In this document: positions 21,770 to 63,290 of the stretch, one piece after another
How the letters are laid out: each line of letters begins with the position of its first letter
Numbering within the stretch: position 1 is the stretch's first letter
Assembly: GCA_003290165.1 (NCBI GenBank)
Contig: QNQO01000506.1
Span: forward strand, 1 to 64,000
Direction of reading: 5' to 3'
DNA: 64,000 nucleotides
DNA from: Berberis thunbergii
Taxonomy: Eukaryota > Streptophyta > Magnoliopsida > Ranunculales > Berberidaceae
The notes under the pieces: model-generated
The model's input: only the letters and a program-made list of their open reading frames with translations
What the model was told of the DNA's origin: nothing
Database searches by the model: none
Position numbers and translations under genes: made by a program

Positions 21770-24702
21770 TACCACTAGTCGTGCCTTATGTCGCTCAATA
21801 CTGCCATCCGAATTGTACTTGATTTTATAAACCCATTTGCTCCCAATGGGTTTCTTACCCGGTGGTAAATCCTCCACGGTCTATGTACCATTATCCTCCA
21901 ATGCTTGGATTTCCTCTTTCATGGCACTACGCCAGTTGACATCCTTTACCGCTTCAGAATACCCAGTAGGTTCACGACCTGCAGTCATAGCTGCGAGAAA
22001 ACGTCTGTGTTTCACAGTAAAGTTGTCACAATGTACATAATTAGTTATAGGATACGGAGTACCTGAGGTTCCTGAAGGGGGCGATGGCGACGGGACAGAG
22101 CCAAGTAGGCGAGTGGTGTGACAAATATAATTCTGCAAATGTCTGGGAGCCCGTCGATCCCTGGAAGTACGCTGGCCAGAACCAGAAGTAGTCATCGGTA
22201 ATGGGTCCGGCTCCACAGATGGTGTATCGACACAGACGCTCCCCCTGGCGTCCAATGTCGTGGTACTTAACTCAGAAGAGGCATCAATAACCAATGGTAT
22301 CCCGTCATCCACTGTGCCAGGTGCTGACTCTAACAAGGGATCATCGCTCATAGTAGGAGAATCAACAAATGGAAAGTTATCCTCACTAAAAACCACATCT
22401 CTCGAGACAAAGAATTTCTCGGTTTCTAGGTCATACAACCGCCAACCCTTCTTTCCGAAAGGATAACCCATAAGAGATACACCGTCGACTCCGAGGGGCA
22501 AATTTATCTGAATCACGAACTCTAGCATAACACAAACATCCAAAAACTCGAAACATGTTGTATGACGGGATACGACCAAATAGGAGCTCATAAGGTGTCT
22601 TTCCAGCCAAGATTGATGATGGAGTACGATTAATTAGATAAACAGCCGTCAAAATGCATTCTCCCCAAAACTGAATGGGAAGGTTAGCTTGAAATCTCAA
22701 AGCTCGAGCAACATTAAGTATATGTCGATGCTTTCTCTCTACTCGACCATTTTGCTGTGGCGTACCTATACATGAAGTTTGGTGCAAAATACCACAACCC
22801 TCAAAGTAGGATTTTAAACATGTAAACTCAGTTCCATTATCACTCCGCACAGTTTGAACATTAGTCCCAAATTGTCGACACACCATGACACAAAAATTCT
22901 TCAGCACACGACTCACTTCAGTCTTCTCAAGTAACAAATAAACCCAAACTGCCCGAGAATAATCATCCACAATTGTCAAGAAGTAAACCGCTCCGCAAGA
23001 GGAGGGAGTGCGATAAGAACCCCATACATCACAATGAATCAAAGAAAATGGCTCAGTTGCTTTAGTAGCACTAATAGAAAATACATCTCTTGTTTGTTTA
23101 GCTCTAAGACATATATCACAATGCAAATCAGAAACCCCACTAACATTAAATTTAGAAAATGATCCCATAACTCGATATGAAGGATGGCCAAGTCTTCGAT
23201 GCCATAATTCAGGTCCATTGTTGACGTCAACCTTGTAGGCCCGGACATTTGTCACACCACGTAGTATGTAGATCCCGTCGCAGTACTCACCCGCTCCAAT
23301 CAGGGTCCTCGAAGTGTAGTCCTGTATCACACATAACTTATTAGTAAGTGTGACAATATATCTTGTGTCATCAAGTAATTTGCCAACAGATAATAGATTA
23401 CAAGTCAATTGCGGAACAAATAAAACATTCCGCAATTCAATATTATTCCCGAGGATCACTGTCCCCTTTTTAGTTGCGGATGTATGTACACCATTTGGTA
23501 GCCCCACAAAGCAAGAATCTGCGACATCTTCGATATCAGTCAGCCATTCAATGCATCCTGTCATGTGATGCGAGGCCCCGGAATCAATAATCCATTCAGC
23601 CGAAGTCTTACCAGTAAGTTTATCAGCGTTTGCACACTTCTGGTTGCTTAACAAGCCGCGCAAAGTCTCCCATTGATCCTCACTCAGAGTACTCAGTCCG
23701 TGTTTGTCCCCATCAGTCAGTCCACCAGACGTGGTGTTTGCAGAGGATGCAAGTGCTGCGTTAGCCCTTGGAGCAATGCGACCACGTCCTGTCCCTCTAC
23801 GGCCAGCAGTACTGCGTCCTCCTTTCGGTCTGTCTCCCCACCATTCAAGATAGCCTATTAATCGGAAGCAGGAAGTCGACGCATGTCCCCCACGTCCACA
23901 ATTGCTGCACACATCAGTTTTACTCCTGCCGTCTGTCTCCCCACCACGGGATTGTGTTTGTGAATAAAACGCCACAGCGTTCTCACTTTTGTCATCTCGG
24001 TTTCGTGCAACATCGCGATGTCTCTCTTCGGTCACGTAAACACGATTCAGGTTGGGTAAAGGATCCAAGTTCAGAATTGTAGAACGAACAGTGCCAAAAA
24101 CCGAGTCTTCTAGCCCCATTAAAAACTGATGAACCTGCTCCTCCTCCCGTCGCTGAATCAGATTCGCAGTGATCTTGCACTTACATCCACTACAGTCACA
24201 CGTGAGAATCGGTTCGTAAATATTAATCTCATCCCACAACATCTTCATTCTCCCGAAATAGGCTGCCACACCCTGACCCTTTTGTTTACATTCAGCCAAT
24301 TCCGCTTTCATCTGCTGCAACCTTGGTCCATTGGCAACCGCAAAATCGCAGTTGAAGATCATCCCAAAGTTCTTTCACCATTTCCCGGTACGTTATGGTC
24401 GAACGTAGGGTCGGCTCAATGGTATTGAAGATCCATGCGACAAGCATGGAATTAATCATCCACCAATCTTCGATTTCCGAGTGATCTTCGGAAGGTTTTG
24501 TTATGGTTCCATCAACAAAACCCAATTTCTTCTTTGCCCGTAATGCGACTCGCACAACCTTTCCCCATTCTTCAAAGTTCGTGCCCTTTAACTGAACATG
24601 GGTCACGAGACTCCCTGGGTGATCTGCTGAGGTCAGTGTGTACGGCGTCATGCTTCCGTCAATCTTTTCTTTGTTCTTGTTACTGCCGGATCCGCCAGCC
24701 AT
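21770..24702 (-). pseudogene. Copia gag-protease-integrase polyprotein, truncated at start of RT
   Basis: Reading the minus strand from ATG at 24702: gag (GSLVTHVQLKGTNFEEWGK), zinc knuckle CSNCGRGGHASTSCF, protease WIIDSGASHHMTG, gag-pre-integrase LWHRRLGHPS, and integrase with CDVWGSYRTPSS, FLTIVDDYSRAVWVYLL, VRSDNGTEFTCL and GTPQQNGRVERKHRHILN. After the core comes the VFGCLCYARV block, a frameshift near 22480-22490, then GYPFGKKGWRLYDLE. The RT start ([40 protein letters not shown]) ends after about 50 residues. A Trp codon is a stop in NGT-stop-TVED near 21882. gag and protease frames overlap at 24292-24362, another frame change. No YVDD box remains, so transposition would need helpers. 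Confidence 0.88.
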
Positions 24703-24747
24703 GCCAGTTATTCAGACAAAATTGTTCACAAATTTGAGTCTGTAACT

Positions 24748-28410: not shown

Positions 28411-30061
28411 ATAATGCATCCAATATGCACCTTCCACCAACAAAATATATGGCTATATGTATATCCTGATATACATCCAATATTCGGGGCGGACAGCCTC
28501 TGTCCAACCCAACAACTAGTTGTTTTGAAGCTGAAATGAAGCCTTCCAACCTAAAAACTTCTACATTCTGGCATTTTTCTATTGGAGCAAATTCTTATCC
28601 TCCATATATCCAAGTTATACATGTCATTGTTAGTTAGGCTCTACTGCTAATGTTAATTAACCCAACAGAGCTGATACCTTTGGTTGAGGAGATCGCATTT
28701 AGTCATCAATCTCAACATTTCTATGCAAACTACCTCTATCAACTTTGCAAATCTTCATGAAGAGTTTCTTTCAGCCAAAGACTGACACCTACTTTTGAAA
28801 AGACATATCTTGCTTTACGAGCAAGTTATTCTTCAAGCGGGAAGTGTTTGCATAGAAACAATGTATGACATGCTTTTATTTATCTCATAATCTTTAGTTC
28901 AATTTCTATGACTTTAGGATCTTCCTCTTCTTTATATTGGATGTTTTTGAAAAACTCATTGAGCAATTTGGTGTTGTTGAAAAGGTGAGGAAAGAGATAC
29001 AAAAATGCTACGAACTGATACACAGGCTTGGAAGAGGGGCCATCTACCTTGGTTCCTCTAGAATGGTAGATCATCCACATTATGTTCAGACACTAGAGTT
29101 GGCAAAAGAGGCAAGTAGTCCATGAATACTCTCCCTCATATTCCTAAGTTGATTGCTTTGACTAATTAAATTCAGACCCAAAAATCAATGAACATTTCAG
29201 ATGCAAGTATGTATCTCGACAACTATGATTTATCACATTAACATACAGATAGAAATGTGTTACAAGATTTTATGTGCAGTCCTTGTTATAGATTTCAAAC
29301 CTTTTGGATTGCACCACATGGACGGGAGCTAGTCCAGGTCTCATGGATGCTGCAACTAAAGGTGCTTTGCACGCAAACAAGTCAGTTGGTGGGTTCAAGA
29401 TAGGTAAAGAAGCCAACGAATGGACGAGCACGAACTTCCATCCATATCTGCCTTCTGAAACTTACCTTACATGCAGGTAATTAGCTTCCTATTATCATTT
29501 ATTCATCCTAGACTTTTTCTGTCCTATTTCAGAAATATTTGTTATGTATTTAAGTATTTCCTTATACTATCGTAAGAAATGTAAGTGTTCATGACAGTGA
29601 AGTATAAAACTCACTGACAAAAGGGTAAAAACATTGATCCTCATAATCTGCACTCAAAGCATAGGTTTTTTACTACAAGGAAACATGGCTTGGTCGATGC
29701 TGCAGTGAGGGCTACTGTGGGTGACAGGACTGCGGTAATTGCCCTACCGGGTGGCATTGGCACTCTAGATGCGATGTTCGAGATTCTTGCTCTGATTCAA
29801 CTAGAAAGGATTGGATCGAAACTACCTGTACCCTTCATTGTGATGAACTATGACTCGTTCTATTCAAAGTTACTGGCTTTCCTTGATGATTGTGAGGATT
29901 GGGGTACTGTCTCTAAAGGGGAGGTAGCATCACTGTGGAAGGTCTGCAATGGAAATGATGATGTTTTGGAGTACTTGGCAGAGTTCTATAATATTCAGCT
30001 GCGTGAAAGAAAACATGAAGTTGCACTCATGAGCGAGTGTAGAATTAGGCCATGTACTTGA
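27586..30061 (+). CDS. LOG-like / lysine-decarboxylase-like Rossmann protein (putative cytokinin-nucleotide phosphoribohydrolase family)
   Basis: Exon model: non-coding or leader exon ending 26657; 27580-27630 with ATG at 27586; 28189-28299; 28918-29110; 29292-29476; 29665-30061. Core blocks: FGVVEKVRKEIQKCYELIHR, GAIYLGSSRM, LLDCTTWTGASPGLMDAATK, VGGFKIGKE, ETYLTCRFFTTRKHGLVDAA, ALPGGIGTLDAMFEILALIQ and DCEDWGTVSKGEVASLWKVC. This is the TIGR00730-type Rossmann family, which includes LOG enzymes releasing free cytokinin bases. The RK pair (TTRKHGL) is kept, but PGGxGTxxE reads PGGIGTLDA: the expected Glu is Ala. The intron after 29110 starts with GC (GAG|GCAAGT). Exon 28918-29110 stays open only if one base near 28937 is extra. 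Functional status is uncertain. Confidence 0.78.
28411..28917. other. Intron of the LOG-like gene, outside the inverted repeat
   Basis: Unique sequence after the end of the left arm. It contains a nearly palindromic pair around 28735 and 28845 (CTATGCAAAC / GTTTGCATAG). No other feature seen. Confidence 0.5.
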
Positions 30062-37232: not shown

Positions 37233-40200
37233 TCAAGCTGGAGCATAAATGTTAATCATGCCCAGCTTGTTACAAAGATAGTCAACCCGAACCCTATTTA
37301 ATGCTTTCGTGAAGATGTCCCCTAGTTGTTCTCCAGTTTTCACATAACCAGTAGAAATCGAGCTTTGTTGAATTTTCTCACGAATAAAATGACAATCAAT
37401 TTCAATGTGCTTAGTCCGTTCATGAAACACAGGATTAGATGCAATATGAAGAGCAGCTTGGTTATCACACCACAATTTCGCTAGTACTGTAGTTTTAAGT
37501 CATACTTCAGTCAAGAGCTGATATATCCAAATTATCTCACATACAGACTATGCCATAGCTCTATATTGAGACTCTGCACTGGATCTTGACACAACGCTTT
37601 GCTTTTTACTCTTCCATGAGACCAAATTCTCTCCAACAAAGATAGAATAACCTGAAGTGGATCTTCTATCCATTTTGGAACCTGCCCAATCGGCATCTGA
37701 AAAACATTCAATATGAGTGTGCCCATGATTTTTGTACACGATACCTCGTCCTGGTGCTCCTTTCAAGTAACCCAAAATTTGTTTTAACGCTGCCCAATGA
37801 TGAATTGTTGGGGATGACATAAACTGATTGACAACATTGACTGAATATACAATATTTGGACGAGTCACGGTAAGGTAATTCAACTTCCGAACCAACCTTC
37901 GATATCTTTCAGGATTTTCAAATGGTTCCCCCTCTTCTGTAAGGTGTACATTTGGAGTCATTGGAGCACTACAAGGCTTTGCTCTCAATTTACCTGTCTC
38001 AGATAATAAGTCAAGGACATATTTTCTCTGAGATAGAAATATACCTTGTTTACTCCGAGTGACTTCAACTCCCAAGAAATACTTTAACACCCCCAAATCC
38101 TTCGTGTGAAGCTGAGTATGAAGGAAAGATTTAAGAGATGAGATTCCTCTAGTATTATTTCCAGTAATTACAATGTCATCCACATACACAACTAACAGAA
38201 TGATACCAGCTGCGGATCGTTTGTAGAATACAGAGTGGTCAGACTAGCTTTTCTTCATACCAAATTTCTCAACAGCATGACTAAACTTTCCAAACCAAGC
38301 ACGAAGACTCTATTTCAAATCATATAAAGATTTTTGAAGTCGACAAACTCGCCCTGACTCCCCCTGAGCAACAAAACCAGGAGGTTGCGCCATATACACC
38401 TCCTCCTTAAGATCACCATGAAGAAAAGCATTTTTGATATCAAGCTGATGTAAAGGCCAATGATGGGAAGCCGCCATGGAAATAAATAATCGAACAGAGG
38501 TTAACTTTGCAACCGGAGAGAAAGTGTCAGGGTAATCAACCCCATAGGTTTGAGCATAGCCCTTTGCAACAAGACGGGCTTTCAATCGGGCAACTGACCC
38601 ATCTAGATTGACCTTAACAGCGAAGACCCATTTGCAACCTATAGCCCTTTTATCTGAAGGTAAATCGACCAGGTCCCAAGTACCATCGTCATCTAAAGCA
38701 TTCATCTCCTCTATCATTGCATTATGCCAATCAGGATGAGATATGGCTTCACGAACAATTTTAGGAAGAGAGATAGAATCAAGGGAAGCAATAAAAGAAC
38801 ACGAGGAAGACGACAAGTTATTATAAGAAAGAAAGGAAGAAATAGGATAAGCACACTGGCGTTTACCTTTGCGCAATGCAATAGGAAGATCATCGCTCGG
38901 GACTAGATCTGATGGCGAAGGAGCAGGTGCAAGACATGAATCAATAGGTGGACGCCTGAAGTAAACCTGAATAATAGGAGCCTTGACAGGAGTTGGTTCT
39001 GAGACAGGTGCTGGTGCCGAAACAGGTGCCGAGACAGGTGTTGGTGCCGAGACAGGTGCTGGTGCTGAGACGGGTGCAGAGGATGTGATGGAATAGACTA
39101 ACAAATCATCATCCTCCCCCTGGCGACTGGGAACGGATGAAGAAGAAAAATAAGGTGTGTCTTCCAGGAAGGTAACATCAATTGAGACTAGATATTTGTT
39201 AAGATTGGGACAATAACACCTATAACCCTTCTGAAGACGAGAATAAACGAGGAAGGCACATTTCAAAGACTTGGGATCTAATTTAGTGACATGCGGACGA
39301 AGATCCTGAACAAAACAAGTGCTACCAAATATTTTCGGGTCAACAGGAAACAATGGCTTATTGGGAAAAAGGATTTTGTAAGGTATCTCACCATGAAGAA
39401 CAGAGGAAGGCATGCGATTAATGAGAAAACATGTTGTAGACACTGCATCGGCCCAAAAAGGTTTAGGAACATTCATTTGAAATAAGAGAGCTCTTGCCGT
39501 TTCAAGAAGATGTTTGTTTTTACGTTCTGCCACACCATTTTGGGATGGGGTATCAACACACGAAGTTTCATGAAGTATGCCATTTTGAGTCATAAGAATG
39601 AAATAAAGCTTGAGTATATTCTCTGGCGTTATCACTTCGCAAAGTACGAATTGAAACATTAAATTGAGTTTTAATTTCAGCACAAAACACACAAAACAGA
39701 TAAAACAACTCAGAACGACGTTTCATGAGATATAACCAAGTGACACGAGAATAATCATCCACAAATGTAACAAAATACCTAAAGCCAGGTTTAGACAAAA
39801 TAGGACAAGGACCCCAAACATCATAATGAACTAATTCAAAAGGAACACTAGCACGTTTATTGACTCTAGGACTTGAACTAAGGCCATGATGTTTTGCAAA
39901 CTGACATGACTCACAATTTAATGAAGACACCTTATTATATTGAGGACAAAGCTTTTTGAGTAAAGGGAGAGACGGATGACCCAACCTACAATGAGCCTCG
40001 AAAAGAGACGTGACACTAAAGCAAACAATAGAACGCGGTACCGATCTATCAAGAATGTAGAGGCCTCCAGACTCATGTCCTTTACCAATAATCTTCTTTG
40101 TCATAAGATCCTGAAATAAATAATGATCAGGATAAAATGAGACACAACAGTTAAGATTACGAGTAAGTTGGCTTACAGAGAGCAAATTAAAGGATAAATT

Positions 40201-40677
40201 AGGTAAATGTAAGACAGAAGACAGAGATAGCGAGGGGGTAAGGTTGATGGTGCTAGACCCGGGAACACAAGATGGTGACCCATCGGCTAAAGTGACGGTA
40301 GAAGTAGAAGCGTAGGATTGAAAAAAAGAAAATAGACTAGAATTACCTGTCATATGATTTGTGGCACCAGAATCAATGATCCACTTGGAGGATGATGAAA
40401 GAAGACATACATCGGGTTTACTAGAATCAACAATAGATGTGACAGAAGGAGATGAAGACTGAAGTGATTCCTGATACTGTGAGAACTTGGCAAATTCATC
40501 AATAGAGATAAGGACCGATTTGTCAGAGGCGTCAGTAGTGACCGCAATATGATTAGACGATCTCCCAGGTGCGTAGCTGTTATTTCGACTTAGCAAAGCA
40601 CCACTAAGCTTATGGTCCGTAATTTTAGACATCACAGAAACCAGATCAGATACAACGACTGACTTTGTTTCAGCCAC
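37233..40677 (-). pseudogene. Copia polyprotein (protease-integrase-RT-RNase H), gag mostly absent, frame-broken
   Basis: Minus strand. 40677-39568: protease WIIDSGATNHMTG, gag-pre-integrase CHLGHPS with CESCQFAKH, and integrase HYDVWGPCPILSKPGF, FVTFVDDYSRVTWLYLM and [13 protein letters not shown] frame change near 39600-39690 leads to 39692-38310: [34 protein letters not shown] and RT start [60 protein letters not shown]. After a stop and frame break, 38189-37548 has the RT active site YVDDIVITG and RNase H DADWAGSKMDRRSTSGYS. The tail [20 protein letters not shown] and GDIFTKAL follows (37475-37233). No CCHC zinc knuckle was found upstream of the protease. Confidence 0.9.
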
Positions 40678-40839
40678 AACAGGTCAAATAGGTCAGAACT
40701 CGGAATTAAAACCTCCAAAATCAAATTTTACAAATGGGGTTATTAGAAATCGTGCAAAATATCCCCCAAATCAAGAGAAATCAGGAAAGAGGCTTGAAAA
40801 GCAGACAAGCAGAGGATGGATAAACCTGGTGAGGGCGAA

Positions 40840-41221: not shown

Positions 41222-42307
41222 TGTTAACAGAGATTAAGAGAATACTTTCTTGTGTATTTCATTGGAAGTATTACATGTATTTATATACAAACTATTAAAT
41301 CTAAACTAGGAAACTATATCAATTAGAATCTCTAATTGACAGCCTAATTGCCAGCCTATTGACAACTATATACACATCGTAACACACACCTTCAGTAAAA
41401 AAAATAAAAGATATATATTTTGAGAGAAACCAATTGAATGACAGAATTGAGTACTCATACAAACCTCTGGCTTGTTTTTAATGTTTTTGGCACGACAAAC
41501 ATAATCAAGTGTGCTTAAAGTTTCTTCCAAAGAGCGCCTTTTGGATGATCCTCATTCCAGGAGATTATAAATTTCATTTGTGTTGTGCACAACCTCTTCT
41601 TCAAGTCCTCTTACAATCACACCACCCCTTCCATCCTCCATCAATGATAATGGTTTCCTTTGTCTATCATCCCCATATCTAACTGAATCTTCAGGGGCTA
41701 ACAAATCAGTTATTTCTTCATTGTATAACTCCAAGAAGGTAACTTTCATACTAAAGTCTGCTTTTTGTGCTTTTAATGCATCAAATATTTGACGTACTGC
41801 TCTTGGAATAACCCCAGCCTCAGCAGACAATTCTCCTCCTTGGTAGGAGACAATGAATTACACAACGAAATCAAATATGGAAATTTTGTAATTTAGAATA
41901 TCAAAAATGTAAGGTAGTTCTTTCTATAGATATACCTTAGTTTTACCCCCTCCATCGTGTATGTTTTACCGGTGCCTGTCTGCCCATAAGCAAAGACAGT
42001 GCAATTGAAACCCTCAAGAACTTCATTCACAATCAGGGAAATGGCATGCTCATATATCGATCTTTGCTGCGTTTTGGGCCCAAAAACCTTTCGAGTATTT
42101 CAAAATGACAAAAAAAAAGATAACTAATCAATATTCTTTTACCAGGAAAGCTGCTGATTAGATAGTAGACAACGAAAGTTCATACCTTATCAAAGGTGAA
42201 AGCTCTGTCTACTTGCTTGTTAGCTGCATTGTGCATAACAGTAACTTCTCTCCTTTTTTCATTACAAGATATCACCTTTGGAATGTTGAATCTTTGCTCA
42301 TCATCAC

Positions 42308-54018: not shown

Positions 54019-54442
54019 ATTTGTGATGCGGGTTTTTAGGGTTCATAATTTGGGTTTCTAGGATTCCTAATTTGCTCTCAAAGTTATTTATCAAATAACT
54101 TATTCGTAATTTTTCAATTTAATTATGATTTTTTAGTTTCTTTTTAGGATCAGACTTTACTTTTTAATTAGGGGGCCTTTTTAGTTTTATTTAATTAGGA
54201 CTGCTTGTTATTTTAGTATATGATTATACTTTTTTTTTTAGGAATATGCTGCTTATTATTAAAATTATTTGAACATTATAAATAAAGCTCTTCCTCAATA
54301 TTGTAGGTGACTTTTAATTTTCATAATTTTGAATTGACATTAGAGATATTTCTCTGTGTTTTGGGCGATTTTTTTGTGTTCTTTTCTGTGAATTTTCTGT
54401 TAGAGCTAGTCTGCAGGATAATCGCTATTATGCTCGGCGTCA

Positions 54443-54457
54443 GTTGGTATCAGAGCT
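54443..54457 (+). other. Primer-binding site of the KEULE-carrying LTR element
   Basis: GTTGGTATCAGAGC right after the 5' LTR; initiator tRNA-Met type. Confidence 0.8.
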
Positions 54458-54493
54458 TCAACATCTTCTTGGAGTGAGATTTCATCAGTTTTC

Positions 54494-55560
54494 ATGGCTC
54501 GTGATCGTCGCGAGCAGGTTCTAAACGAGGAAGTCCTTTACCGTGATCGTAACATTCAGGATGTGATGATTGAAGATTTACATAAGCAAGTTGCAGAGTT
54601 AACCTAGCGTCTAATGGTGCAGGATTTCGAAAATCGTGAGATGAAAGATCACGATTCTGATTTCAATTTCAAAAACCCGTATCACAATCATGCTCGATTC
54701 TGGAAGCGTCGTGGTCGGGAGGATCGTCATGGAGACCTCGAATTCAGAATGAATCTGCTCGAGTTTTTGGTACGTTACAGGCCGAATGATTCATCCCGTA
54801 TGTTTTAGTATAAGGAAGTCCAAGATCGTGTCAGGGTGAAATTGATCACCATCAAAGTCAAAGGCAGAACATTTGTGTGGTGGGAGCAGTTGAAACGAGC
54901 ATGACACAGCAGGGCAAGGCCAAGATCACTAATTGGGAGAAGATGAAGGGTCACTTCCTTCATTACGGCTACACTTAATCCTTATTTCAACAACTTCACT
55001 CGTTGAGGACCGGTTCTGAAGCCTACCAGCGTGCAGTTGCTGTGGAGAAACAATAGAACAGGAGACCAATGATCATAAGTGATCAAAGCAGTCAGCCAGT
55101 TCGCCCTCACGAGTTTCGTTCTACCCAGCAACCACCACAAGTTACTTCTAACTCAAATATTAGATGTTTTCAGATGTGGTGAATAGAAACATAGAGCGAA
55201 TGAGTGCATGAAGCCCACTATTCAGAAGGGAAACAGTCTCTTGATTGAAGAAGACGTGGTAGATGAAACTGAGGAGCTTGGAGAGCCTGTGTATAACGAT
55301 GATGAAGATGGAGATATGTTGTATGGAGATGGCCATGAGACTCTGGTTGTTCGTAAGATTCTACTGACTCCCAAGGGTGATTCAGGGGACGATTGGTTGA
55401 GAACCAATATTTTTCACACGACTTGCACAGTTGCAGATAAAGCTTGCAAGATGATCATTGATAGTGGCAGTTGTGAGAACGTAGTGTTTGAAGCGGTTGT
55501 TCAAAAATTGCGGTTGAAGATAGATTGTCATCCCAAATCGTACAAATTGTCGTGACTGAA
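54494..55560 (+). pseudogene. Gypsy-like gag and protease remnant
   Basis: From ATG at 54494: MARDRREQVLNEEVLYRDRN, then DLHKQVAELT and a stop. Further on: YKEVQDRVRVKLITIKVKGR followed by TFVWWEQLKRA, the capsid motif of Gypsy gag. The protease region lies at 55208-55554 with ACKMIIDSGSCENVVFEAVV and KSYKLS before the break. Several stops and frame changes are present. The zinc-knuckle region near 55170-55210 is damaged. Confidence 0.8.
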
Positions 55561-55570
55561 TAAATGCAGT

Positions 55571-56483
55571 GAGGAGCTCCAAATGGTTCGCTACCATGCT
55601 GCCAAGTCCCTTGATTCGTCGACAATTACTACGTTTCGGGATTTGGTTCCAACAAAGCTTGCTGCTTTTGTATGGAACTGTCTTTCCAAATAAGAAACCT
55701 CTATACCCAACTTCCCTCATACAGAAACATGCGAGTTGCTTATCATGGACAGATCTATAAATCAGTTTGCCCCTGTCATACATGAATGGACATATGATGC
55801 CATGTGCCATGATTTGTTAGATATGGAAGGAAATAAATATGTTCACGAGATTCAAAGCAAATCAGGTGGCCCACCTGAGAAGAAAGAGGTGTTGTTGGAA
55901 GACCATGATCCTGTTTGGCTTGAGCTGCGCCATGCGCATATCGCAAATGCTAGTGAAAGATATGAGAAGATGACCAACTACGTTTCAAAAAACAAAGCTG
56001 CTCAAATATCTTCAAGGAGTGGTGGTGAGCTGTCTACACGAGACCTACAGAAAATGGTTCAAGTTTTGCCACAATACAACGAACAGATAGACGAACTTTC
56101 TCTCCATGTAGAGATTGCTGGAAAATCAATAAAATTATCAGAGAATTAGATCTTAGAGAACTTGGGCAACTGGAGCAGGACCTTGTCTTTGGGGATGCAG
56201 GGACAAAAGAAGTAATCAATTTCCTAAGAACAAAGTAGGACGCAAGTTGCAAAAATAAATTGCAATTGTTAATGATTTACTCATCCGTATACCCTGAGAA
56301 GTTTTAGGGTGACCAGAGTTCGAAGTTGATGCAACTGGCTAGATTATAGCCTGAGGATATGCATGTTGTGCACAACATGAGATTGCTTGAAGGAGCAGCA
56401 TCACCAGATACGGAAAAGACCTCAACAAGGGTTTTTCTATTAAGTTTGATGTTTAGAAGAAAAAGTATGCAGTAAATGAGACA
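55571..56483 (+). pseudogene. KEU: Processed SEC1/KEULE-like (Sec1/Munc18) fragment inside the LTR element
   Basis: One nearly continuous frame: MVRYHAAKSLDSSTITTFRD, LVPTKLAAFVWNCLSK, stop (55691), [100 protein letters not shown], a one-base shift near 56130, [28 protein letters not shown], LLMIYSSVYPEKF-stop-GD, PEDMHVVHNMRLLEGAA, and SIKFDV-stop-KKKYAVN (near 56450). Order and spacing match the middle of plant SEC1/KEULE, which controls syntaxin-mediated vesicle fusion in cytokinesis. About 300 of some 660 residues are represented. No introns interrupt it although plant SEC1 genes have many, so it came from spliced RNA. Four or more stops show it is dead. Confidence 0.9.
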
Positions 56484-56498
56484 TGCCATTTAAAACTA

Positions 56499-56728
56499 AT
56501 GACTTCTTCCCATATGCAGCCCATGCAAATGCGTACTAGACAAGTTATTTCACCAATAGGCCAGCCATCAAGCGATATAGACGTAAATCCATATTTGTCA
56601 GCGGAGATGCAACAGCTAGCAGAGTTTTCTAACCTGATACCGGAGGATCTTATTCCTGGGCTGCCGCTAGAGGATTCCGTTGAAGCTGTTGTGAACTCGA
56701 GGACGAGTTCTTTTCAAGTCGGGGCGAT
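56499..56728 (+). pseudogene. 3' coding tail of the LTR element
   Basis: Frame MTSSHMQPMQMRTRQVISPI followed by SSDIDVNPYLSAEMQQLAEF and VVNSRTSSFQVGAIDAG, which runs into the 3' LTR. The V-N-P-Y-L then N-S-R-T-x-x-F-Q pattern resembles the extreme C-terminus of Gypsy polyproteins (NVxDLSPY, LRTNPFQxGG). Confidence 0.6.
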
Positions 56729-57135
56729 TGATGCAGGAGGGTTTCTAGGGTTCCTAATTTGATCTCAAAGTTATTTACTAAATAACTTATTCATAATTTT
56801 TCAATTTAATTAAGAGTCTTTTTAGTTTCCTTTTAGGATTAAGCTTTACTTTTTAATTATGAGTCTTTTTAGTTTCCTTTAATTAGGACTGCTTGTTATT
56901 TTAGTATTTGATTATACTTTTTCTTTTAGGAATAGACTGCTTATTATTCAAGTTATTTGAGCACTATAAATAGAGCTCTTCCTCAATATTGTAGGAGACT
57001 TTTGATTTGCATAATTTTGAATTGACATTAGAGATATTTCTCAGTGTTTTGGACGTTTTTCTTGTGTTATTTCCTGTAAATTGTTTGTTAGAGCTAGCCT
57101 ACAAGATAATCAATATTTCACCCAACGTCAATTTG

Positions 57136-60469: not shown

Positions 60470-63290
60470 CATCAACCCAAGGATCGTGATTTCGAGTTAA
60501 ATTCGGTTTTCTGATTTTATGAAATATTTGTTTTGTATAGAAATATTTTGATTTTAATTTCAAATTTAACAATATAAGTTATGCATTTTAAATTCTTAAA
60601 CACTACAAAAAAATCCCATACGACACATAGTGTCATACAAACCACACATTATATAAGAATCACTCGCATGACGACAAACTTTGGATACTAAAATAACATT
60701 ATAGCAGGTAAAAATATACAGAGATTTAAATTTTTAATTTTTAATTTTTAATTTCTCTTGAGGAGATTTAAATATACATAGATTTAAATATACATAGATT
60801 TAAATTTTAATTTTTCTCATGAGGAGATTTAAATATTTAAATATTCAGAGGAGTTTCCATGTGAAAAAAAATTAAAGATTTAAGATTTTGGAAGATATTT
60901 CATTAGCTTCAAAATAGAAAATATTTCGTAAATTTCAAGAAAAAAATCACATTCCTTGCATCAACGGATCAACCTTTTCAAGGATAGTAGCAGTTTTAAG
61001 CCCATTGGGTGTTTTTCACCATTGTTGTTGGGGGGTTTTGGAAGGTGGGATTGTGAGAACTTTCTAGGCTTCCATAACCTAGAGAGCTTTTGAGATTTTG
61101 TGTAATTTTTTCAAAAATGACACACTTGATAAACATGAGAGGACCTCCATGAGCTCTTTTGGGATTTCAAGTGCTCAAAATCCGGTGATAATATCTTTCA
61201 TGTTTGAGAGTCCGTTTAATGATGGAAAATGAAAAATGTATACAGATTGAAGTGGGTTTGGAAAAGAGAATGGGTTGAAGATTGTGGGGTTTTATAGAAA
61301 GCGTAGTGGAGAAATGAAGAAAACATCTTGGTGGTGGGCATAATTAGTTTACTTGTGATGGAGAATTGGTGGTGGGCTTATTGCATCTTATTTTCATTAT
61401 CACTTTCTCTTTTTCTTATTTGATTATCACTTTTTCTTTTTCTATTTGTGTTTTGTTAGAAAATATTGATTTAGAGTATCTTTGTAAATCAATTTTGAAT
61501 TGGGTTTGTGGTTGCAACCTTGGATATGGGGATTTCAAATGTATATTTATTTGGGGAGGTTTGGAGTTGAGCGTTTGTGGCTGGAAACACGGGAGTGGCT
61601 GCATGACATACATTGTTCTTCTTAAAAAAAATATTTGAAGAGCAAAACGTTAGAATAACATGTGAAAATTAAATATTGCTTAACAAAGGTGTTTGGGATT
61701 ATAGTTTCTAAATTTTCTAATTAGATCATGACACTAACTAATAATGCCTTATTGTCCCAATTGAAGAAAAAAACAAAACACGAGCTTGATGTTGGGTTGA
61801 AATACTCAAGTAAAAGATTTTGACGTCGGGCATAATAGCGATTATTCTGCAGGCAAATAACAACATATAATTGACAAAGAAGAATGCAAGATGATAGTCC
61901 AAAACACAGAGAAATAACTCAAATGTTTAATCAAATTACTCAAATCAAAGGTATCTATAAAATCAGCCCACAAGCCGGGTTTTATAGCTAAAAACTCATA
62001 AATACTGAAATTTTATCAAAAATGGCAACACCCCAATAATCATGCTAAAATAAAATACGTAATAAAATAAATATACTACCAGAAATCTAGCCCAAATTAG
62101 GTTCAGAATCACTTCCTAAAATATAATTGAAATATTACTATAAAGGAAAATAAATTACTAAATTTGTGGATTCGAAAGAGGAAATGGTGGATTTTGGCCT
62201 CGAAAAGATGTTCAACGAGCGTAGCTGGTTGACCAAGACGTGTGCGTTGAAAAGAACTTTTTGAATTGGGGTACTTTGCGCGATTCTGATACTCGTAGCC
62301 AAAGTTATGGCTAAAATAATAAAACGCATCCTAAATTGCCAAATTTGAAATAGAATTATAATTTCTTACCATTCTTGCGTTGATCTGCTAATTCGAGATA
62401 TTTTAGTGCTAATAACGTGCTATCTGACAGCTCAACATCATCTGACTCGGATCCTCCTGCATCAGATTTATATATGGGTGCTTTGGTGACCATAATAAAT
62501 GCACTCAAAATAATGATTAATCAAATTAATATAAGTAGATAATGTTTTATCCAAGGTTTCCATTGGTTGGTAGATCATTGAAAATGGATTAGTATTGACG
62601 AAGTTATCATTGTTTGAAAACGGTAATATTTGTTGAAAAACTAAGAAAACATGTATAAATGAATACTATGCAAGTTGATGAAGGTGACGACAGTTTGGTA
62701 CTAGGTGCGTCATGTTCATGATGAAATGTTATTCTTGATGACAAGACACAAAAACTCATTAAAAATTATAATAACCAGTTCAAAATTACAGTAAAATTTT
62801 CCTAACTGATATTAATATATTGGCACCGTTTATGAGGTATTTTTGTCTCGTCGTCAACTATAGTTTTTCATCATCGACGTGATGTACATTCGTCGCTTAC
62901 AAGGAATGTGATTTCTCAAAATATGTTGAAATTTCACAAAATATTTCCTCTTTTGAAATTACTGAAATCTCCTTCGAAATATGAAATATGTCAAAATTTT
63001 CTAGAGATATAAATATTTTTATCTATGTATATTTTAACAAGCTATAATGTTATTTTAATATCAAAAGTTTTTTATATGAGTAATTATGATGTAATATGTA
63101 ATATGTATAACACTATGAGTCGTATGAGAATTTTTATGTAGTATTTAAGTGTTTAAAATATATAACTTATTGTTAACTTCAAAATCACAACCGAAAATTT
63201 TGCGTTTTTTCTACACAAAACAAAATATTTCTTAAAATCGGGGGACCGAAATTAACTCAAAAAACAAAATCAAAGTCCTTGGCTGCTTAT
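60470..63290. mobile_element. Element with long degenerate inverted arms (Mutator-like or foldback)
   Basis: 60470-60965 is the imperfect reverse complement of 62915-63290. Shared blocks, left arm sense: GATTTCGAGTTAAATTCGGT-like, GAAATATTTGTTTTGTATAG-like, CATACGACACATAGTGT-like, ACTAAAATAACATTATAGC and AATCACATTCCTTG. The interior (60966-62914) holds a solo LTR (61821-62464) and otherwise no recognised coding sequence. No target duplication was found, so the class is uncertain. Confidence 0.72.
61821..62464 (-). mobile_element. Solo LTR, same family as the KEULE-carrying element
   Basis: Plus strand begins TGACGTCGGGCATAATAGCG, the reverse complement of the 3' end of the LTR at 54024-54442 (CGCTATTATGCTCGGCGTCA). 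It ends GGATCCTCCTGCATCA, the complement of the LTR start TGATGCAGG. GATTT flanks both sides (61816-61820, 62465-62469). At 644 bases it is longer than the 419- and 402-base LTRs. No internal sequence remains, as expected from LTR-LTR recombination. Confidence 0.88.

Follow-up and report, generated by a model that had tools for sequence, protein, structure and literature searches.

Introduction

Capture of host genes by plant LTR elements has been reported repeatedly. Surveys in maize, in rice and sorghum, and of NLR genes in pepper describe pieces of host genes lying between LTRs (PMC2774510, PMC3726574, PMC5664825), the maize survey tracing 425 elements back to at least 189 captures (PMC2774510), and the pepper NLR captures are described as intronless (PMC5664825). 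The original prediction for the locus studied here had called such host transduction rarely documented, a statement at odds with the hundreds of captures in these reports. Pickup of spliced host mRNA by LTR elements is usually explained by transduction or by template switching (PMC13317346). Like the element described below, maize Bs1 is an LTR element with host gene pieces inside, in its case from three genes (PMC13317346), of which only exons are said to have been captured (PMC4717578). The capture of oncogenes by retroviruses, as reviewed, shares with the route proposed below the splicing of LTR read-through RNA to host exons, with capture following promoter insertion, and also loss of viral genes and a need for helpers (PMC4276931).

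Results

Structure of the element

The window, a 64,000-nucleotide stretch of Berberis thunbergii DNA, holds at 54024-57130 a single integrated Ty3/gypsy-like LTR element with a spliced SEC1/KEULE insert of about 900 bp. Its features are listed below.

54019..54023 (left) and 57131..57135 (right), no strand: target-site duplication ATTTG, exact 5-bp match
54024..54442, plus: 5' LTR (TGATGC...CGTCA), 419 bp
54445..54456, plus: primer-binding site TGGTATCAGAGC, adjoining the 5' LTR
54494..55173, plus: gag remnant, broken
55187..55573, plus: CCHC end and N-terminal part of the aspartic protease, last bases GAG
55573..55574, plus: left joint, GCAGTGAG / host exon
55574..56470, plus: spliced SEC1/KEULE cDNA, 897 bp, eight whole host exons and 11 nt of a ninth
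56471..56574, plus: alpha-mannosidase (GH38) cDNA fragment, 104 bp
56575..56664, plus: pre-reverse-transcriptase stretch (EMQQL..EFSNLIPEDL..GLP), position taken from annotated relatives
56665..56728, plus: short pol C-terminal remnant (NSRTSSFQ..DAG) and imperfect polypurine tract
56729..57130, plus: 3' LTR, 402 bp

The paired LTRs have TG..CA ends and lie within a short duplication; the primer-binding site that adjoins the 5' LTR is, we take it, of the initiator tRNA-Met type. The polypurine tract ahead of 56729 reads AAGTCGGGGCGAT and is imperfect. Between the two LTRs, 351 of 400 aligned bases are identical (88%, K2P 0.136). With the duplication, the LTRs and the primer-binding site in place and eight host introns absent from the insert, the prediction of one integrated LTR element with intronless SEC1/KEULE was borne out. 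There is next to no chance that LTRs were misassembled around a SEC1 pseudogene: the target-site duplication is exact, a second contig (C8158) matches 55399-57130 at 100% with agreement that continues about 100 bp past the element, and a separate locus (C183/C6547) carries the same SEC1-mannosidase joint between LTRs.

Searches with gag and protease returned 49 relatives (E <= 0.001, lowest value 2.5e-82) that bear the annotations Retrotrans_gag, Ty3_capsid, Asp_protease_2 or RVT_1. The element is Ty3/gypsy-like by virtue of these gag/protease relatives, reverse transcriptase and integrase being absent here and in the empty sister copies read. Compared with related proteins, 56665..56728 gave no match to reverse transcriptase, RNase H or integrase, and no match to reverse transcriptase or integrase was obtained anywhere in the element. 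The Asp_protease_2 match within 55187..55573 had an E value of 0.009, weaker than Pfam's cut-off, and the gag lacks about 51 residues that are found in several annotated relatives among the 49 related proteins.

Elsewhere in the window, 61821-62464 on the minus strand is a solo LTR (TGATGCAGGAGGATCC...CGACGTCA) belonging to a related family and flanked on each side by GATTT; its resemblance to the LTR studied here is confined to the U5 end (76% over 119 bp). By reading of the open reading frames, there are also two Ty1/copia-like polyprotein remnants (37548-40683 and 21881-24711, both minus), exons of a LOG-like gene (28898-30061, plus) and exons of a kinesin-like gene (41551-42099, minus).

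The SEC1/KEULE cargo and its host gene

The captured segment corresponds to residues 201 to about 500 of plant KEULE/SEC1 (tblastn E 8.6e-97 and 4.8e-39, query P0002), as the original prediction had expected of a translated search, and one open stretch of it matched Pfam Sec1 at 3.6e-36. The predicted presence of SEC1 thus stood, while its extent, given as 55571-56483, was corrected to 55574-56470, with 56471-56574 assigned to alpha-mannosidase. Plant KEULE proteins matched the segment at 71-78% among the 120 matches listed of 1,297 passing E 0.001. The named KEULE proteins nearest by identity were those of Ranunculus, Macleaya, Thalictrum and Malania (80-81%), with two proteins lacking a species name equally near, and the highest score among the matches listed belonged to a Brassica protein with a repeated stretch. 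A tree of these proteins did not place the sequence firmly, and the relatives obtained with a PPR query reached 60% identity at most. A KEULE scan of the genome_contigs set found no relative, nor did a gag-protease scan of the viral_contigs set.

The cargo contains two frame breaks, five in-frame stops and no introns. Because of these stops and frame breaks it reads as a pseudogene, and we imply no function for it; the idea of selection on the cargo was rejected for the same defects. A 7-base direct repeat, ATGCAGT, occurs on both sides of SEC1, which is within chance expectation (P 0.093).

The host SEC1 locus was found in the same 2.24-Gb genome on contig C908 (duplicate C9346), with a paralog on C6733/C210. 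The host stretch corresponding to the cargo covers nine exons, and the eight introns between them are missing from the element copy. The first intron within the captured stretch lies approximately at the position of Arabidopsis KEU intron 9, which falls after codon 264 by the numbers given in PMC11204279.

We compared decay of the cargo with the LTR clock. At near-invariant SEC1 sites 12 of 134 differed (9.0%), against 14.1% (9.0-20.1) expected, a count that sits at the lower edge of the range and in which four of the five stops fall in counted columns. On this count the SEC1 piece had decayed little before the window copy inserted.

Sister copies without cargo

A whole-element search of the 2.24-Gb genome, in which 40 of 5,067 candidates were scored, gave 97 matches. 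Among these, the left joint was reached at 31 places besides the window copy and its duplicate contig. At 21 of the 31 places the tail lies 323-335 bp beyond the left joint; the remaining 10 (C470, C8018, C125, C6102, C6243, C4153, C331, C6117, C127 and C7401) were all read and hold host sequence. In the empty sisters read, the tail goes directly into the LTR, without reverse transcriptase or integrase. The stretch of about 330 bp in six of them (L006, L008, L020, L022, L025, L027) consists of the remaining protease region and the pre-reverse-transcriptase stretch, and LTR K2P values for four empty copies were 0.058-0.089. The element was predicted to have exchanged its polymerase genes for SEC1. 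This did not hold: the empty sisters are already short and lack polymerase, and SEC1 replaced only about 330 bp. The prediction also included neither the second host gene in this copy nor the donor-like left joint and the other genes captured there.

We also searched for the 33-base junction itself. Allowing up to 3 mismatches and counting duplicate contigs, it was present at 1,049 places; a reversed control gave 0. Eighty of the 95 exact copies were read, and these comprised 76 empty copies, three with LON and one with a kinase, i.e. captures in 4/80, in a sample that favours well-kept copies and in which the LON copies on C371 and C7593 are probably one locus on duplicate contigs.

The missing introns would also suit a processed SEC1 pseudogene, made by LINE machinery and inserted into an existing LTR element. 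We consider this very improbable, since the insert is a slice from inside the coding sequence that passes into another gene at about codon 500 and has no mRNA 3' end or poly(A), since the 330 bp or so were replaced and not added to, and since other genes use the same base.

The left joint resembles a splice donor

At the point where SEC1 starts, empty sisters read GGCAGTGAG/GTAACAGTAG, i.e. GAG/GTAACA, with GT at the joint base in 72 of 76 empty copies and GTAACA in 58 of 76. Four captures share this one base: SEC1, LON, UNC13-like (followed by TOPLESS-like) and a CDK-like kinase (C99). The C99 kinase copy reads GGCAGTGAG/GATGATGAGG, and three further kinase copies read GGCAGTGTG, with GTG replacing GAG. 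In the listed captures the joint lies at GGCAGTGAG or 1-2 letters off, and this pattern gave no joint in L017, L024 and L026. The bases that follow the joint (GAGCTC, ATCATA, CTTGGA, GATGAT) are unrelated and have no common identity.

In the host genes the inserts begin at intron ends. The host SEC1 intron ends ctcgcag/GAGCTCC on C908 and C9346, and ctcgcag/GAGCTTCC in the paralog on C6733. The LON insert starts ATCATAGCATTGCC, and the LON paralog on C23 reads cgtatcag/GTCCTAGCATTGCC; the LON acceptor rests on this paralog, the captured exon being absent from the 2 kb examined of the closer LON gene (C960). For the UNC13-like capture, the host on C13 reads ggacag/CTTGGAAGACGC, with letters identical to the start of the insert, and three further loci agree. 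Thus the insert begins exactly at an intron 3' end in all three captures tested (SEC1, LON, UNC13-like) of the four known at this base. To us the left joint looks like an element splice donor joined to a host acceptor, the terminal GAG of 55187..55573 presumably being the exon side of that donor. Against this, the putative donor, GAG/GTAACA, fits only 6 of 9 positions of the donor consensus. All four captured exons are in frame with gag-protease (phase 0), and this agreement carries little weight because phase 0 is common among plant introns.

It could be argued that template switching between packaged RNAs made both joints, that the left one is a hot spot for such switches, and that element and host RNAs were never spliced together. 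Template switching is a published mechanism of capture (PMC13317346), and the right joint of SEC1, with its 9-nt identity, fits it. Against a double switch, four unrelated host sequences sit at the same base without common identity, and 3/3 tested inserts begin precisely where a host intron ends, opposite the GT of the element. We therefore regard a double switch as improbable; a two-step capture of the retroviral type appears to fit the pattern better.

At the host loci (L036-L039) we looked for family elements up to 1.5 kb ahead of the captured SEC1 exon and found none, which lends no support to cis read-through. This result, together with the use of several different host genes, speaks for a left joint made by trans-splicing of separate element and host pre-mRNAs, and not in cis from an upstream insertion. 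Upstream insertions may, however, sit farther away or have been lost, and read-through RNA is spliced in cis far more often than RNAs are trans-spliced; we hold the trans route to be possible though rather unlikely.

The right joint and the alpha-mannosidase fragment

On its right side the SEC1 sequence enters the next exon by 11 nt and then changes to alpha-mannosidase within a 9-nt identity. Host SEC1 exon 9 and sister L042 both read AAAGCATGC there, and the window AAAGTATGC (56462-56470). Host SEC1 exon 9 starts AAAAAGCATGCTGC, where L042 reads GCAAAGCATGCAGTAAATG and the window copy AAAAAGTATGCAGTAAATG. From this alignment, the putative switch point lies in AAAGCATGC, mid-exon.

Pfam gave no match of its own for the 56471-56574 fragment, which we take to be alpha-mannosidase because in sister L048 it is continuous with a GH38 stretch. 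Three sisters (L042, L047, L048) have the mannosidase stretch ahead of the tail, and about 32 bp of it that L031, L042 and L048 retain are missing from the window copy. An earlier reading of 56478-56540 as diverged element sequence was superseded by the alpha-mannosidase identity. The right-joint identities of the LON and TOPLESS captures are candidates, judged by eye.

Other captures and their spread

Further copies with the same LTRs and the same host junctions had been anticipated. A second SEC1-mannosidase locus (L031, on C183, duplicate C6547) has its own LTRs (K2P 0.065), the same right joint and flanks ATTTC/ATTCC that are 4/5 alike; its gag-protease is missing, so this copy does not show the left joint, and the expectation held for the right side only.

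UNC13-like followed by TOPLESS-like sequence occurs at two loci (L009 on C6243; L018/L019 on C470/C8018). These two names are presumptive, given from the look of the sequences; Pfam gave only weak WD40-type matches for the TOPLESS-like piece and none for the UNC13-like piece. LON protease (Pfam PF02190, 5.9e-14) was captured in L012/L013 (C6117/C127), L015/L016 (C125/C6102) and further places, and the CDK-like kinase (Pfam Pkinase, 1.2e-11) in L010, L011, L014 and C99. L048 combines NOP14 (Pfam 1.1e-30) with GH38 (7.8e-20), and L042 holds a WD40 piece that is presumably UTP4-like. The SEC1, UNC13 and LON chimeras each occur at at least two loci and hence moved after capture. The NOP14 chimeras (L067, L068, L017) join inside gag near window position 55009, close to the gap of about 51 residues in the family's gag, which indicates that the protease donor is not the sole entry route.

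Some copies have additional features. L033-L035 (C5090, C3368, C26) are mosaics of a shortened gag, a SEC1 piece, further coding pieces and serine carboxypeptidase (1.4e-5), followed by the tail. On contigs C3 and C4756 a 270-bp part of the LON chimera repeats every ~2.53 kb, as in a tandem array. After the host exons, LON and kinase copies L015, L010, L011 and L014 have sequence like CACTACAAGAAAA, presumably a CACTA-transposon-like end.

Discussion

Judged from its sequences, the family is probably large, non-autonomous and Ty3/gypsy-like, and was without reverse transcriptase and integrase before SEC1 was captured, the capture proceeding by splicing from the donor and then by template switching. 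From what can be read in the copies (a common donor base, host exon starts, missing introns and second loci) we infer splicing in vivo, packaging and an order of events as follows. A 5' splice donor, GAG/GTAACA, would be located in the protease part. An LTR-driven transcript would meet a host gene, by read-through or in trans, and splicing would join the donor to a 3' splice site of that gene, so that the product is an RNA of LTR, gag, pro and host exons. Since such a chimeric RNA still has its 5' end, primer-binding site included, it should be packageable, alongside ordinary element RNA and with proteins provided in trans. On the 3' end of the ordinary RNA, reverse transcription would start and then jump at a short identity to the host exons; the jump would provide the absent tail and 3' LTR, and the DNA would insert with a 5-bp duplication. 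The chimera could be recopied and may gain further genes; the cargo here consists of SEC1 exons joined on the right to an alpha-mannosidase fragment that is found also in other chimeras of the family.

More broadly, and with somewhat better than even confidence, we propose that the family works as a built-in exon trap in which host exons are joined, time and again, to the protease donor by splicing, after which a template switch closes the element, yielding amplified multi-gene mosaic subfamilies. If true, this would be a plant counterpart of retroviral oncogene capture, for which a detailed two-step model exists, and one that is habitual in a single lineage. The two ends are separate, the left one having a fixed donor and the right one a switch guided by identity, and one genome offers natural replicates, which makes the mechanism directly testable. 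The process is also a possible route for fusing unrelated exons, such as SEC1 with alpha-mannosidase, UNC13-like with TOPLESS-like, and NOP14 with alpha-mannosidase. Such chimeric copies may pass for genes in annotation.

At the level of titles and the beginnings of abstracts, we found no fixed-donor capture family in the literature. The soybean TRIM element GmaRetroS15 is likewise a small LTR element with captured host exons; it is of a different kind, and a fixed joint does not figure in its description as cited (PMC4717578). In the maize survey, under its conditions, no element combined pieces of two or more standard genes, in contrast to the multi-gene mosaics present here. Unlike Bs1 as described, this family has many copies in which different host genes were taken up at a single fixed, donor-like base. 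These comparisons fit a division in which gene capture by plant LTR elements is the known part, and the fixed splice donor, its use with several genes, the multi-gene mosaics and the amplified chimeras are the new part. Unlike in retroviruses, the capturing element here is a plant Ty3/gypsy-like one, capture recurs at one base, and the chimeras have been amplified as subfamilies.
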